Shown: positions 1,447 to 17,430 of the stretch, piece by piece
Layout: each line of letters starts with the position of its first letter
Numbering within the stretch: the first letter of the stretch is position 1
Virus record (IMG/VR): IMGVR_UViG_3300043420_001465
Span: 1 to 21,519 of that record
Direction: 5' to 3' (one strand)
Origin: a virus
DNA length: 21,519 bases
Position numbers and translations under genes: made by a program
The notes under the pieces: generated by a model
Told to the model about the DNA's origin: nothing
Seen by the model: only the letters and a program-made list of their open reading frames with translations
Databases searched by the model: none

Positions 1447-1782
1447 TTAGGCTCTCTTCGGGGAGCCTTTTTTATTGGAGCGCCTCACTTTAAGTAAACG
1501 CTTTGCTTTGACGATGGGCAATTCCATTAAACTGCTATCTTCTTTTAGTCTCTTTAAAAAAGAATTTGCTTCTGAGTAGTATTTAAATTTACGAAGCGAT
1601 TTTGTCTCTAGCTGATAAACTGTAATCTCGATAGTTGAATGCCTGGGGGAGATTCCAACCGCAATAGGATCTAGCTTATAATATTCTTTAGGGATGTACT
1701 TGTGTATGTCGCCTTTTGGCGCAAATTTCCTGAAGCCTAGCTTTCGAAGTTGCTCTGTAAACGCTTTCCTACTACCCGACAT
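1447..1782 (-). CDS. Small basic protein of unknown function, downstream of the Ntn hydrolase
   Basis: The product is a 111-aa, Lys/Arg-rich protein. The frame stays open back to 1902, but a start there would lie inside the upstream Ntn hydrolase gene. The ATG at 1782, 10 nt after that gene's stop at 1793, fits a compact operon better. The segment RKAFTEQLRKLGFRKFAPKGDIHKY is faintly like small double-stranded-RNA-binding or HicA-type folds, but that is too weak to name it. The tail KRLLKVRRSNKKGSPKRA is strongly basic and is encoded through the gene 19 terminator hairpin. It is third and last in a minus-strand cassette. A nucleic-acid-binding or protease-substrate role would be guesswork. 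Confidence 0.65.
   Translation of the reverse strand: MSGSRKAFTEQLRKLGFRKFAPKGDIHKYIPKEYYKLDPIAVGISPRHSTIEITVYQLETKSLRKFKYYSEANSFLKRLKEDSSLMELPIVKAKRLLKVRRSNKKGSPKRA
1450..1473 (+). terminator. Intrinsic terminator after gene 19 (UUCG tetraloop)
   Basis: GGCTCTC (1450-1456), TTCG loop (1457-1460), GGGAGCC (1461-1467): a 7-bp stem with one G-T wobble and a very stable UUCG loop, followed by TTTTTT. It ends the sheath/tube transcript and lies within the last codons of the convergent minus-strand gene. Confidence 0.9.
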
Positions 1783-1792
1783 AACAGGTAGC

Positions 1793-2419
1793 CTACTTTT
1801 TACGCTTGGTGGTTTTGGATGTCTTTTTAGAGACTTTTTTAACTTGCTTTTTAGAAGCTTTTGAAACTCGGGGCTTTTTAGTAACGGTCTGTAGAAATTC
1901 AAAATTAAATGGCTTGGCTACTGTTTGGCAAAATGAGCTGGATGCTTCAAGGGCTAAGGTTATACGCTGAGTTGGATTGAATATTGACTTAGTAGCATAC
2001 ATTACACCAAGCGCATAGTCGCATCCGCTCCCAATTGACTGGTATCTGTTAGGGGTTTCCACCACGGAAAAATCGTCGGATATTACAAATATGCTCTTGT
2101 GAATTCCTATTAACAAGTCAAATGAGCCCGGCTCGATTTTATTATATCCCGCATCTATAAAAAACTTTTGCAAGTCGGGTAAAAATTTTGTGTGGAGAAA
2201 TAGCTCTATGTCTTTATTTCTGCCTGGAGATGGAGGATTAAATCTATGTTTGATAAGTTGCCCGAATCTCAGGTCGCCACAAAACCCAAAAAGAATGTTA
2301 TTTTTGAGAAATACTTTTTTGTCTGAAAGTGTAAGTTTTGATCCGGATTCAGTTGTAACTAGCGAATCGGCCCCAAACATTATTCCATTATCTGTTATTA
2401 AGCCGACTACGCATGTCAT
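1793..2419 (-). CDS. HslV/proteasome-type Ntn hydrolase
   Basis: The 208-aa protein looks like an N-terminal-nucleophile peptidase of the proteasome beta/HslV class. After removal of Met1 the chain starts T-C-V-V-G. Counted from there, Thr1, Asp17 (in FGADSL) and Lys33 (in LSDKKVFLKN) fall exactly at the HslV catalytic positions. Later SIGSGCDYALGVMYA matches the GSGGPYA region of HslV. The core ends near residue 175 and is followed by a Lys-rich tail of about 35 residues not typical of HslV. No HslU-like ATPase is visible in the window, so it may use a host partner or act alone. It starts 3 nt after the 115-aa gene stop with AGGA upstream. The fold is well supported; substrate and role are unknown. 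Confidence 0.8.
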   Translation of the reverse strand: MTCVVGLITDNGIMFGADSLVTTESGSKLTLSDKKVFLKNNILFGFCGDLRFGQLIKHRFNPPSPGRNKDIELFLHTKFLPDLQKFFIDAGYNKIEPGSFDLLIGIHKSIFVISDDFSVVETPNRYQSIGSGCDYALGVMYATKSIFNPTQRITLALEASSSFCQTVAKPFNFEFLQTVTKKPRVSKASKKQVKKVSKKTSKTTKRKK

Positions 2420-6588: not shown

Positions 6589-6619
6589 CCCCATCTGGCG
6601 TATGTCAGGTGGGGTTTTT
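6589..6619 (+). terminator. Intrinsic terminator after gene 32
   Basis: CCCCATCTG (6589-6597) pairs with CAGGTGGGG (6606-6614), a 9-bp stem with one G-T wobble and an 8-nt loop, followed by TTTTT. It closes the 59-32 operon. The convergent 812-aa gene ends inside the T-run. Confidence 0.92.
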
Positions 6620-9056
6620 ATGTTAATGGGGATAATATATGTCTTAATGCTAAAAGAAAGCTAGACTCTGATGCCCCATTAGAGGGAGCGCCTACGGTCT
6701 TAGTTGATATTGTGGATTGTTCTGCTGCTGCTTGCTGAACCGGAACGTTCTGTGAAATGATAATTGGCTGGCTTTTTACAGCATCATTTTGTCGAGATAG
6801 ATTACTTACGGTATTTTGAACCATCTCCTGTCCTGTGGGCTTCATCTCAACCTCACTTCGAGTAAGAACCATTTGTTGATTTTTTCTTGCGTTTAAATCA
6901 ACATCAGCCTGTTCGAAAAATTCATTTGCTTTTTTAGCATACTGCAATCGCTTTCCGTAATGTTTGATCCCAGCTCTTTCAAAAGATTGCTCAAATGCTA
7001 TAGTTTTATTTTCAATTCCTTCGGCATTCTTAATTGCCTCTAGGGAACCCTTTTCTGTTGTTTTTAATTCATGAACTAAGAATTGGTAATTTGCCTCATC
7101 TGAGGTAATGTCAAGGTTGTTTTCTTTAGCAAACTGTTCAAATTGCTTACGACGAGAGCCTGTCCATTGAGCCCAACCGTATCCTCCTCGACTTCCAGGC
7201 ACTACGGGGTTAGCTTCATTAATATCTGGCCTTAAACCGGCACTCTCATGTCCTAAATTGCCTAAGATGGCCGCTGCGTCTTCCTGGCTAATATTTAAAT
7301 CACGCATTAAACGCTCCATTACGCTAGGAGCTTTATCTCTAAATGAGCTAAGTGATTTAGCTGAAATTTTATTTGATGATCTATCAGGAGACGGGCCAGC
7401 TATAGGCGGAACCATCTTCGCACGGATTGATGCTTCCTCAGCAGCTTTATTTTTAATATCTAATAGCTCCTCTTTGCTATAGAGAGGATTTGAATACTGT
7501 TTACCTTCGGAATTAGTAAATTCTGATATGCCCGTTAGCCCTCCTTGCTTTTGCTTTTCATCTACATACTCTTTGTATTGCAGATACATGCTTTTGGACC
7601 TTTCAACATCGCCTGCGGCTTCGTCCATTGTTGTAGATTTGTTGTTAATTCTGTAACTCCCATCCCCAAAAACACTTCCATTTTGAAACGCCTTCTTAAA
7701 TAGCTCGTTCTTTGTTTTAAACGTTTTCTCTAGGAATTCTAATGCTTTAGCCTCCGACTTTTCCAAATCCTCCGGAGTAAGTGAATTTTGAAATAAATCT
7801 TTGTAGTAATCAACTCCCTTTGTTTTTTCCCCTATGGTTCTCGACAAAGATTTGAATCCTTCTATTGCCGCTGGAAATACTGCATTTGCTCCCTGGTATC
7901 CGAGTGTAGCTCCAGTAATGGCCAGTCCGATTGGGGACGTTGGGGCTTTAGCGACACGTCCTATAGTGGCTAAAGATGGTGCCTTGCTTGCTATATTACG
8001 TAGCAGAGGGGCGACTTTACTAATACCTCTCTTTAAAACGGGGCCAGTTTTTTTAGTAATTTCCTTAACTAGGTATAAATCAAGTAGGGTATTGGTTATT
8101 TGCTCTATTGTTCCAGAACCCTCAGAACCTCCAGAACCTCCAGAACCTCCAGATTCTGCTCCCTCTCCTTTAGAGTTTAAAATTTTTCCAATTAAATCTT
8201 TTGTGATATCTCTCTTATTTGCAACTTCCATTTCTGAAGTTGCACTTTCTTGAGCCTTTTCCAAACTTTTTAAAGCTTCAATATCAGATTTGTCATCATT
8301 TTCTATTGTTTGTGCGGTAAGAAATTTTTTAATGTCTTTTATATCTTGATTGGTCTCTTTAGATACCGTTAAAAGATTGTTTAGTACTTTATTTTGAACT
8401 GTGTTAGTACCAATAAGAGTATCATCTTTAACTGGTAAAGTGTTTTTATCCGTGGGAAGTTGTGGTAGAAGAGTTGGGGTTTGCCCAAGCGTAGGAGCAT
8501 TGCTGTACTGGCCAGCATTACCATATTGGCCAACATTACCTTTAATCAAATCGTTAATTCGCCTTTGTTCTTCTTGATCCACTTTTGGCTTAATAGTCCC
8601 GGCGAGACCCCCAAATCTTGTGCCCATCTCGTATGCACGTTCTTGTAGATTAATTACTTCCTGTCCAATTGATGTTAGTCCCGCAATGTTTCTGGCGGTT
8701 AATGCGCTCATGTATTTGATGCGTTGGTAAAAGCCCCATCTTTCGTTCACTTTCTGGTCTAATAGTTCTTTGGACTTTTTCAAATCGTCTTGAAATAGCG
8801 GATCGGAAAGGGCGGGCTCATCTTTAGACGCAAGTAAAATATATTCTAATCGCTGCTGGTATTTTGGTAAATCTTGGGCTTCGTATTCATCAAAAGCCTC
8901 TGATAATAAATCGGCAACTTCTTTATAAAAACGAGATATTTCAGCTGTGGGTGAATCCAATCGTGCTGACTTTTTAAGCTCGTCTATAAATGCCAAATAC
9001 TTAGCATCTGAGGTGCTAAGTGCATTTCTATTTTTACTTTTTCTTCGACGTGCCAT
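6618..9056 (-). CDS. Tail protein with C-terminal lysozyme domain, candidate tape measure
   Basis: This 812-aa protein is the longest in the window. Residues 1-150 are helical and charged; then come the repeat GQYGNAGQYSNA, a Ser/Gly linker (GGSGGSGGS, near residue 305), a hydrophobic stretch APTSPIGLAITGATLGY (about 370-400), and a lysozyme-like domain at about 575-716. That domain, with AILGNLGHESAGL, GGYGWAQWTGSRR and FLVHELKTTEKG, fits the Phage_lysozyme2/tail lysozyme family (PF18013), with the Glu in GHESAG as likely catalytic acid. The gene overlaps the end of the gp26 frameshift extension (TAATG), the position of the tape measure gene in many tailed phages. Tape measure and baseplate lysozyme are both possible; the enzyme domain is firm and the ruler role inferred. 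Confidence 0.75.
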   Translation of the reverse strand: MARRRKSKNRNALSTSDAKYLAFIDELKKSARLDSPTAEISRFYKEVADLLSEAFDEYEAQDLPKYQQRLEYILLASKDEPALSDPLFQDDLKKSKELLDQKVNERWGFYQRIKYMSALTARNIAGLTSIGQEVINLQERAYEMGTRFGGLAGTIKPKVDQEEQRRINDLIKGNVGQYGNAGQYSNAPTLGQTPTLLPQLPTDKNTLPVKDDTLIGTNTVQNKVLNNLLTVSKETNQDIKDIKKFLTAQTIENDDKSDIEALKSLEKAQESATSEMEVANKRDITKDLIGKILNSKGEGAESGGSGGSGGSEGSGTIEQITNTLLDLYLVKEITKKTGPVLKRGISKVAPLLRNIASKAPSLATIGRVAKAPTSPIGLAITGATLGYQGANAVFPAAIEGFKSLSRTIGEKTKGVDYYKDLFQNSLTPEDLEKSEAKALEFLEKTFKTKNELFKKAFQNGSVFGDGSYRINNKSTTMDEAAGDVERSKSMYLQYKEYVDEKQKQGGLTGISEFTNSEGKQYSNPLYSKEELLDIKNKAAEEASIRAKMVPPIAGPSPDRSSNKISAKSLSSFRDKAPSVMERLMRDLNISQEDAAAILGNLGHESAGLRPDINEANPVVPGSRGGYGWAQWTGSRRKQFEQFAKENNLDITSDEANYQFLVHELKTTEKGSLEAIKNAEGIENKTIAFEQSFERAGIKHYGKRLQYAKKANEFFEQADVDLNARKNQQMVLTRSEVEMKPTGQEMVQNTVSNLSRQNDAVKSQPIIISQNVPVQQAAAEQSTISTKTVGAPSNGASESSFLLALRHILSPLT
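8128..8154 (-). repeat. 9-bp tandem repeat encoding the Gly-Gly-Ser linker
   Basis: Three tandem 9-bp units (cctccagaa on the + strand, last unit with one change) with degenerate copies just before them encode GGSGGSGGS in the 812-aa tail protein. Such microsatellites can change length by slippage, altering linker length. Confidence 0.7.
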
Positions 9057-9978
9057 TAAACTTCACCAGTTTGTTTTATTCTTTCCAATTCTTGTAAATG
9101 ATTCACCAATAAAATTTTGTAAGCATCCAATTCGAATGGATACATACTTTCAATATCCCTTAGACTCCACTTATGAAAGTGCATTAAGTCAAAGCATGTT
9201 TTGTAGTACCCCGCTAGGCTATCATCACCTAGCGTTATACGAAAAAATCGGATAGCCCCACTAGTTTATGAATCGCTTCAAATTTACACTTAGGGCATTC
9301 AATTTTTATCTCCAATATCAACTTGGGTATATTACTTACAAAATTTTCTAATTCGTCCATTACCTTTGGCGAAATCCCATCTAGCCAAGCAATTTTTTCT
9401 TTGTAGGAGTAGTCGGCAAATACAAATGTCTTATCATTATCAAAAACACTTTCAATCGACACTGCTATTATATCAATTAGCTTTTCTATTTCTTTTTTAT
9501 CAGAAGAGTCAAGCTCAAGTGCTTCCAGGTCTGAATCGAATGGATATTTAAGCTTTAACCCAAGTCCATTTCCTATATCGATAATCATTTCCTTTTTCGA
9601 CTTGATAGACCCTTCAATTTTTGCTTTTCGTAAATCAGCTTTAACAATCTTGGTCTTTGCACACTCGCTGCACTCGTCGCCTCGCTTTGGAATTCTAACT
9701 TCAAGGTCTATTGTCTCTCGCAATGAGTTAATTACGAGTTGCAAAAATATCCATTCGAGATCGAACGTAGTAAGATGTTCACAATTTAATTCAGATACGC
9801 ACGCTCCGCATATTTTTCTTACGGCCTGACTTATTTCAGTCGGGGAATTAGACTCCATTGCCATTAATAGAACCTTTCTTTCTCGGGTTTCTATAGGTCT
9901 ACACTGGAATCGTTTACCATTTGAGGGTAAGGTTATCGTAAACGTTGGGTGTACGATTTGTGGTAATGGTATGCTCAT
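9056..9978 (-). CDS. gp26 -1 frameshift fusion (GT-like tail assembly chaperone), 307 aa
   Basis: It has the first 246 codons of gp26 as the zero-frame product, then a -1 shift on T TTT TTC (9247-9241) and 61 more codons (9241-9059) to TAA at 9058-9056. The extension starts RITLGDDSLAGYYKTC and includes FDLMHFHKWSLRDIESM and YPFELDAYKILLV, a small helical domain of the kind seen in the T part of tail chaperones. The -1 frame has no ATG until the LMHF methionine, so it is not well placed as a separate gene. The stop overlaps the next start (TAATG). In lambda and many other phages the G/GT pair binds the tape measure protein before tube assembly. Frame and stops are seen directly; use in vivo is inferred. 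Confidence 0.8.
9212..9247 (-). promoter_or_regulatory. Programmed -1 ribosomal frameshift signal
   Basis: On the minus strand: heptamer TTTTTTC (9247-9241) in the X XXY YYZ phase (GAT TTT TTC), 6-nt spacer GTATAA (9240-9235) holding the zero-frame stop, then stem CGCTAGG (9234-9228), 9-nt loop, CCTAGCG (9218-9212). Stem pairing is perfect. Heptamer, spacer length and hairpin all match known -1 signals. Confidence 0.85.
9235..9978 (-). CDS. 26: Baseplate hub/tail assembly protein gp26 (zero-frame product)
   Basis: The 247-aa protein belongs to the T4 gp26 family (PF12322, T4 baseplate): an N-terminal TFTITLPSNGKRFQCRPIETRERKVLLMA, a helical FDLEWIFLQLVINSLRE, and two CxxC pairs, Cys103/Cys106 (ECSEC) and Cys228/Cys231 (ECPKC), probably a zinc site. 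The chain ends GLSDFFV with TAA. The last Phe codons form a slippery heptamer, so a fraction of ribosomes should shift and make a 307-aa fusion. It follows the gp54-like gene and precedes the 812-aa tail gene. In T4, gp26 is a hub assembly protein; the frameshift design suggests it works here as a G-type tail chaperone. Confidence 0.85.
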   Translation of the reverse strand: MSIPLPQIVHPTFTITLPSNGKRFQCRPIETRERKVLLMAMESNSPTEISQAVRKICGACVSELNCEHLTTFDLEWIFLQLVINSLRETIDLEVRIPKRGDECSECAKTKIVKADLRKAKIEGSIKSKKEMIIDIGNGLGLKLKYPFDSDLEALELDSSDKKEIEKLIDIIAVSIESVFDNDKTFVFADYSYKEKIAWLDGISPKVMDELENFVSNIPKLILEIKIECPKCKFEAIHKLVGLSDFFV

Positions 9979-14178: not shown

Positions 14179-14631
14179 GTGAAAACATTTCATCAGGGGC
14201 TTTACAGACCTAAAAATCCTACAAAATACCGAGGAGATATTTCAAATATTCAATATAGATCCTCATGGGAAGCCGCTTTAATGTACTGGCTCGATATGAA
14301 TGAAAAAATAAAGCACTGGTCTTCTGAAAGCGTAGTCGTGCCCTATGTTTCTCCTTTAGACGGAAAAGTCCACAGATATTTCATTGATTTTATGATTGAG
14401 ACAACTGCCGGGGTAATTTTAGTTGAAGTTAAACCTCAAAAGGAGTGTATGCCGCCTAAAATGGGTCGGGGGCGCAAGAAACACATCGTTGAGTCTGAGG
14501 CATTGACTTATGCAAAAAACAACGCCAAATGGCAAGCAGCGGAGCAATACGCCAATTCTATGGGGTATAAGTTTCAAGTATGGGATGAAGTTACACTAAA
14601 ATCGCTGGGAGTTGTAATCCCAGCGAAATAG
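14179..14631 (+). CDS. 4: Head completion protein gp4 (TnsA-like nuclease fold), GTG start
   Basis: At 150 aa it is the same length as T4 gp4. The opening TFHQGLYRPKNPTKYRGD and SNIQYRSSWEAALMYWLD are the family signature, followed by KHWSSESVVVPY, YFIDFMIETT and VILVEVKPQKE. The D...EVK pattern is a PD-(D/E)xK nuclease-like core related to TnsA; in T4, gp4 finishes heads after packaging. The start is GTG at 14179: an in-frame stop lies at 14167 and the next ATG would delete the family N-terminus. The last codons also form a 9-bp hairpin that is a terminator for the opposite strand. It is a lone plus-strand gene between two minus-strand operons. Confidence 0.92.
   Translation: MKTFHQGLYRPKNPTKYRGDISNIQYRSSWEAALMYWLDMNEKIKHWSSESVVVPYVSPLDGKVHRYFIDFMIETTAGVILVEVKPQKECMPPKMGRGRKKHIVESEALTYAKNNAKWQAAEQYANSMGYKFQVWDEVTLKSLGVVIPAK
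14598..14626 (-). terminator. Minus-strand intrinsic terminator inside the 3' end of gene 4
   Basis: TCGCTGGGA (14602-14610) and TCCCAGCGA (14618-14626) form a perfect 9-bp stem with a 7-nt loop. Read on the minus strand it is followed by TTTT (14601-14598). It should stop transcription of the fibre operon coming from the right. The same bases encode the last residues of gp4. Confidence 0.75.
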
Positions 14632-17355: not shown

Positions 17356-17430
17356 TGGCTGGCGAGGTAGGGATCGAACCTACGACGAGCTGATTAACAG
17401 TCAGCCATTCTACCACTGAATTACTCGCCA
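17356..17430 (-). tRNA. tRNA-Asn (anticodon GTT), CCA encoded
   Basis: On the minus strand: acceptor TGGCGAG/CTCGCCA (7 bp), D-stem ATTC/GAAT, anticodon stem GCTGA/TCAGC with loop CTGTTAA (anticodon GTT), T-stem GTAGG/CCTAC with loop TTCGATC, discriminator G and encoded CCA. U1-A72 and G73 are features of bacterial tRNA-Asn. All stems pair fully, so it looks functional. It lies between two minus-strand genes and is probably cut from their transcript. Confidence 0.97.

Follow-up and report, generated by a model that had tools for sequence, protein, structure and literature searches.

A probable -1 programmed frameshift joining a gp26 homologue to a gp51-type domain in T4-type phages

The window analysed here, a stretch of viral DNA of 21,519 bases, carries T4-type genes, including those for the C-terminal part of a tail sheath protein, gp32, PhoH, gp19-like tube proteins, gp53, a gp2-like end protector and baseplate proteins. 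The locus of interest lies on the minus strand at the 3' end of a gp26 homologue, and its features are collected in Table 1 together with others found in the window.

Table 1. Coordinates of the features at the gp26 locus and elsewhere in the window.
Feature	Position	Strand	Basis
gp26 homologue, putative short chaperone form (TAC-N / G-type), 247 aa	9235..9978	-	PF12322 E=7.5e-47; PHROG 150 E=4.6e-47
Slippery heptamer T TTT TTC, 0-frame codons TTT TTC	9241..9247	-	read directly
6-nt spacer GTATAA, includes 0-frame stop TAA (9237-9235)	9235..9240	-	read directly
Predicted stimulatory hairpin, 7-bp perfect stem and one closing G-U pair	9212..9234	-	RNA folding
-1 frame extension, 61 new codons and stop, putative gp51 C-terminal domain (TAC-C / T-type)	9056..9247	-	PHROG 634 match
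Next gene, 812 aa, tape measure position, tail lysozyme domain	6618..9056	-	Phage_lysozyme2 E=3.7e-28; PHROG 9570 tape measure 1.6e-09 over lytic region
tRNA gene	17359-17430	-	Rfam RF00005, 66.7 bits
TnsA-like endonuclease N-terminal domain, single gene facing the tail genes	14179-14631	+	PF08722 E=2.2e-18
Two reading frames overlapping by about 110 bases, weak proteasome/Ntn-hydrolase-like match	1793-2419 and 1447-1902	-	PF00227 E=0.008, below cut-off

Direct reading of the minus strand gave GAT TTT TTC GTA TAA as the 3' codons of gp26 in the 0 frame, which places T TTT TTC in the phase required for a tandem -1 slip. The stem, which starts 6 nt past the heptamer, is formed by CGCTAGG (9234-9228) pairing with CCTAGCG (9218-9212), and the 81-nt stretch was predicted to fold with a minimum free energy of -19 kcal/mol (z -2.4). 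The predicted -1 product continues after FF with 61 new residues, giving a fusion protein of 307 aa, and the stop codon of the -1 frame (TAA, 9058-9056) overlaps the ATG of the next gene as TAATG. The first-pass annotation had described the phase of the heptamer, the stop within a 6-nt spacer, the perfect 7-bp stem and an open -1 frame of 61 codons ending in TAATG, and all of these were borne out when the sequence was read directly.

A profile search matched the extension to positions 56-112 of the 121-position profile of PHROG 634, annotated as "baseplate hub assembly catalyst" (E=1.5e-18). In T4 gp51, the first two hundred residues match PF12322 and the C-terminal hundred match PHROG 634, both in one frame, whilst T4 gp26 matched PF12322 only. 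These profile matches identify the extension as the C-terminal domain of T4 gp51. The only matches to a structural model of the -1 domain (pLDDT 79) were gp51-type proteins and small, uncharacterised proteins of phages, and no match reached E<0.001.

Conservation was assessed across 181 loci, comprising the window, phage records and viral contigs, which were retrieved mainly via the gp51 domain rather than via the heptamer and were scanned with profiles for the gp26 part and for the gp51 domain. The viral-contig searches that yielded loci used narrower alignments, and a direct viral-contig search using the gp26 protein returned no matches. With gp26 taken as the 0 frame, the gp51 domain fell in the -1 frame in 180 of the 181 loci, the sole exception being T4, where it is in frame. 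A search of relatives for the same heptamer and an open -1 extension, as the first-pass annotation had proposed, located both in every one of these 180 loci; the heptamer lay in frame within the overlap as T TTT TTC (130 loci) or T TTT TTT (50 loci), most loci having come from extension alignments that start with FF, so that the search favours FF itself, though neither its codons nor the preceding T. The heptamer was also present in all 58 representatives left after clustering at 80% identity, and the slippery form was found in only one of 50 other Phe-Phe pairs of the same genes (Fisher exact p=3e-30). The distance between the heptamer and the 0-frame stop varies among the loci (L097, L098, L119, L125, L128, L149, L161, L010, L046 and L074), being 0 bases in a subgroup and 9 or 24 in others.

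The slip site is a run of six T, a homopolymer prone to sequencing errors, and an assembly or sequencing indel might in principle have split a single in-frame gene. This we regard as exceedingly improbable, as the -1 layout recurs across unrelated isolates and metagenomes, 180 loci in all, finished reference genomes included. The match of the extension to PHROG 634, together with a layout common to 180 of the 181 loci, likewise excludes chance; the relatives thus rule out both assembly error and chance as the origin of the layout.

Sequence 3' of the heptamer was also found to be structured. Folding z-scores in sliding 50-nt windows were lowest just 3' of the heptamer (-1.6 to -1.75), with values elsewhere between 0.3 and -0.7. 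The 58 representatives were also compared with synonymously randomised sequences, in which codon usage and the protein of the -1 frame were left unchanged; their mean z was -2.05, with 53% at p<0.05, and a control stretch 75 nt further on gave a z of 0.01. No clearly significant hairpin was present in about half of the 58 representatives; downstream structure is common among them, and a claim of universality would go beyond this evidence. In G/GT-type frameshifts generally, a stimulatory RNA structure shortly after the slip site is frequent but not a constant feature. Stem length differed by lineage, from 7-8 bp in the window to about 11 bp in P-SSM2 and 14 bp in S-PM2. Within the window's own clade (L013, L177 and L179), the stem letters were identical, with variation in the loop and flanks. 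One stem register common to all the cyanophages was tested and rejected: 73.6% of cells were paired at the best register and about 29-56% at others, and the best register fitted only part of the set. An Rfam scan of the window retrieved only a tRNA, with no model for a frameshift element.

The gp51 domain could alternatively be made as a separate small protein through coupled re-initiation after the gp26 stop, with no fusion. An ATG, GTG or TTG lies near the junction in 25 of the 58 representatives, and gp51 is annotated as a gene of its own in S-PM2, P-SSM2, PX29 and phiM7. In the window, however, the -1 frame opens at 9265 and the earliest ATG, GTG or TTG is at 9184, corresponding to extension residue 22, inside the conserved domain; ordinary initiation could not yield the complete domain. 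A -1 frame without a start codon between its opening and the conserved core was found in 33 of the 58 representatives (the window and 32 others). Re-initiation would moreover not select an in-frame T TTT TTY, and T4 and six relatives have the gp51 domain fused in frame, all of which makes re-initiation a very unlikely account. The -1 domain lacks a start codon, and for this reason public records for some of the loci (L002:2564-2698, L003:1501-1698 and L008:1501-1680) have gp51 either too short (S-RSM4) or uncalled (S-CAM1 and Cronobacter LPCS28).

The gp26 model produced with AlphaFold2 had a pLDDT of 93. The top three of 599 aligned chains were RBSTP2171 (3fgx, Z 8.0), the HK97 tail assembly chaperone gp13 (2ob9, Z 7.3) and YqbN (3klu, Z 7.1); Z-scores of 7-8 fall in the range where the tool warns of a merely common arrangement, yet each of these three is a tail chaperone and scores above the chains ranked next (Z 5.1 and 2.9). 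Their alignments span 84-86 residues and lie within residues 1-95 of the gp26 model. A Foldseek search with the gp26 model gave no significant E-value, and PDB sequence searches with the gp26 and gp51-domain profiles gave only chance-level matches. The modelling provides good, though not conclusive, indications that the N-terminal part of gp26 folds like the three solved tail assembly chaperones. The first-pass annotation had read the locus as a G/GT-like -1 frameshift, a reading now backed by the conserved heptamer and -1 frame, the RNA structure and the predicted chaperone fold of gp26; judged on these sequence-based grounds, it is very probable that a tail assembly chaperone gene undergoes a programmed -1 frameshift of the G/GT type here.

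A long gene was found within 30 nt 3' of the chaperone and extension in 169 of the 180 loci. In the window, the 812-aa product of this gene is a candidate tape measure protein by gene position, and comparison with T4 gp29 by phmmer and by profile gave no significant match. The long gene is 33-38% identical among close relatives (L013, L177 and L179), and the copy in the window carries Phage_lysozyme2, whilst that of L177 has no PHROG match of any kind. These differences suggest exchange of the lytic part.

It might also be that frameshifting occurs and that its products are components of the baseplate hub, not chaperones of the tape measure protein. T4 gp26 and gp51 are both listed as hub assembly chaperones, gp26 also as a possible hub constituent (PMC3004832), and the link to the tape measure in the window is one of position only. 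Nonetheless, the predicted gp26 fold matches HK97 gp13 and YqbN-type chaperones, the order of chaperone, extension and long gene with a lytic domain is the usual order of chaperone and tape measure genes, and gp51 has been reported absent from the virion (PMC3004832). We therefore consider a hub role for the products unlikely.

For a tail chaperone made in two forms, the following course of events is proposed. Most ribosomes would stop at the gp26 stop codon, yielding the short G-like form of 247 aa. A minority would pause at the hairpin and shift one base backwards at the T TTT TTC heptamer, with both Phe-tRNAs re-pairing with TTT, and the slipped ribosomes would read on into the gp51 domain to produce the long GT-like form of 307 aa. 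During assembly of the tail tube, both forms would probably coat the tape measure protein, the putative product of the large gene that follows, and keep hold of it. T4 and its near relatives obtain these two products from a pair of genes instead: gp26, short and lacking a slip site, and gp51, long and in frame. We infer the slippage itself, its frequency and the action of the chaperones on the tape measure.

It had been noted at first pass that T4 has separate genes where the window has a fusion, and this holds more strongly than was stated, since gp26 and gp51 of T4 are paralogues (BLASTP E=2e-06, with PF12322 in both) and gp51 is the in-frame long form. In all seven two-gene phages (T4, PG7, a Jiaodavirus, a Lazarusvirus, AhMtk13a, Whisky and EC-F2), the short copy was without the heptamer and the long copy carried the gp51 domain in frame. 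The C-terminus of T4 gp26 still reads EFFELL, but its Phe codons are TTC TTT. No locus examined combined a slip-site gene with the two-gene arrangement. We accordingly favour, as somewhat more than an even prospect, the view that T4-type phages have either one gene with a selected slip site or two paralogues with the slip site erased, the two states being mutually exclusive; that the hairpin is kept as a structure whilst its sequence and register shift by lineage; and that T4 gp51, the classical hub assembly catalyst, is a duplicated in-frame GT form, duplication having replaced recoding within the Straboviridae.

If true, the replacement of recoding by gene duplication would be a clean and testable case of a protein ratio fixed in two ways. 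The single locus of the window shows a probable way in which the tail chaperone is made by hundreds of T4-type phages whose hosts are marine bacteria, Vibrio, Aeromonas and rhizobia. The frameshift reading also corrects a widespread mis-annotation of gp51, and gives T4 genes 26 and 51, an odd pair, a simple shared role.

In the G/GT systems of lambda and other tailed phages, the ribosome likewise slips by -1 at a heptamer close to where the chaperone gene ends (G GGA AAG in lambda), a C-terminal domain lies in the -1 frame and the tape measure position comes next. These G/GT-type frameshifts were reportedly described by Xu, Hendrix and Duda in 2004. The proteins of the window differ from those of lambda in belonging to another family (PF12322). 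The first-pass annotation had likened the extension to a T-type domain; the kinship found for it is to gp51, and one to lambda gpT is at most a possibility.

T4-like chaperones have themselves been treated in earlier work, as relayed by passages of two citing papers. The PRFect paper (PMC10885494), citing Vladimirov, Gautam and Davidson (Virology 2022, 566:9-15), refers to T4-like phages in which a short gene and a long fused gene take the place of frameshifting, and the Adele paper (PMC12846349), citing the same study, mentions poly-T slip signals for TAC-N genes in T4-like phages. The chaperones of that study, as so relayed, likewise have a short form and a long form, the latter made of the short form plus a downstream part, and poly-T slip sites; judged by profile, the genes concerned in T4 are gp26 and gp51. 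The frameshift of the window is therefore, on the strength of these citing passages, a known kind of device, and the first-pass remark that none had been described for a T4 gp26 homologue does not stand, as T4-like chaperones and poly-T slip sites were already published according to both papers (PMC10885494, PMC12846349). Three points may go beyond the earlier work, so far as the citing passages convey it: how widely the signal is conserved, an RNA structure under selection, and a slip site and a duplication that strictly alternate. T4 and its close relatives use two genes for the two forms, whereas the window has one gene with a slip site. For Pakpunavirus / Vandenendeviridae and Andersonviridae, the Adele paper (PMC12846349) likewise describes a myovirus chaperone in which the poly-T -1 site is conserved and the -1 frame is open, though these are other phage families and their slip motif is GTTTTT, in contrast to the T TTT TTC of the window.
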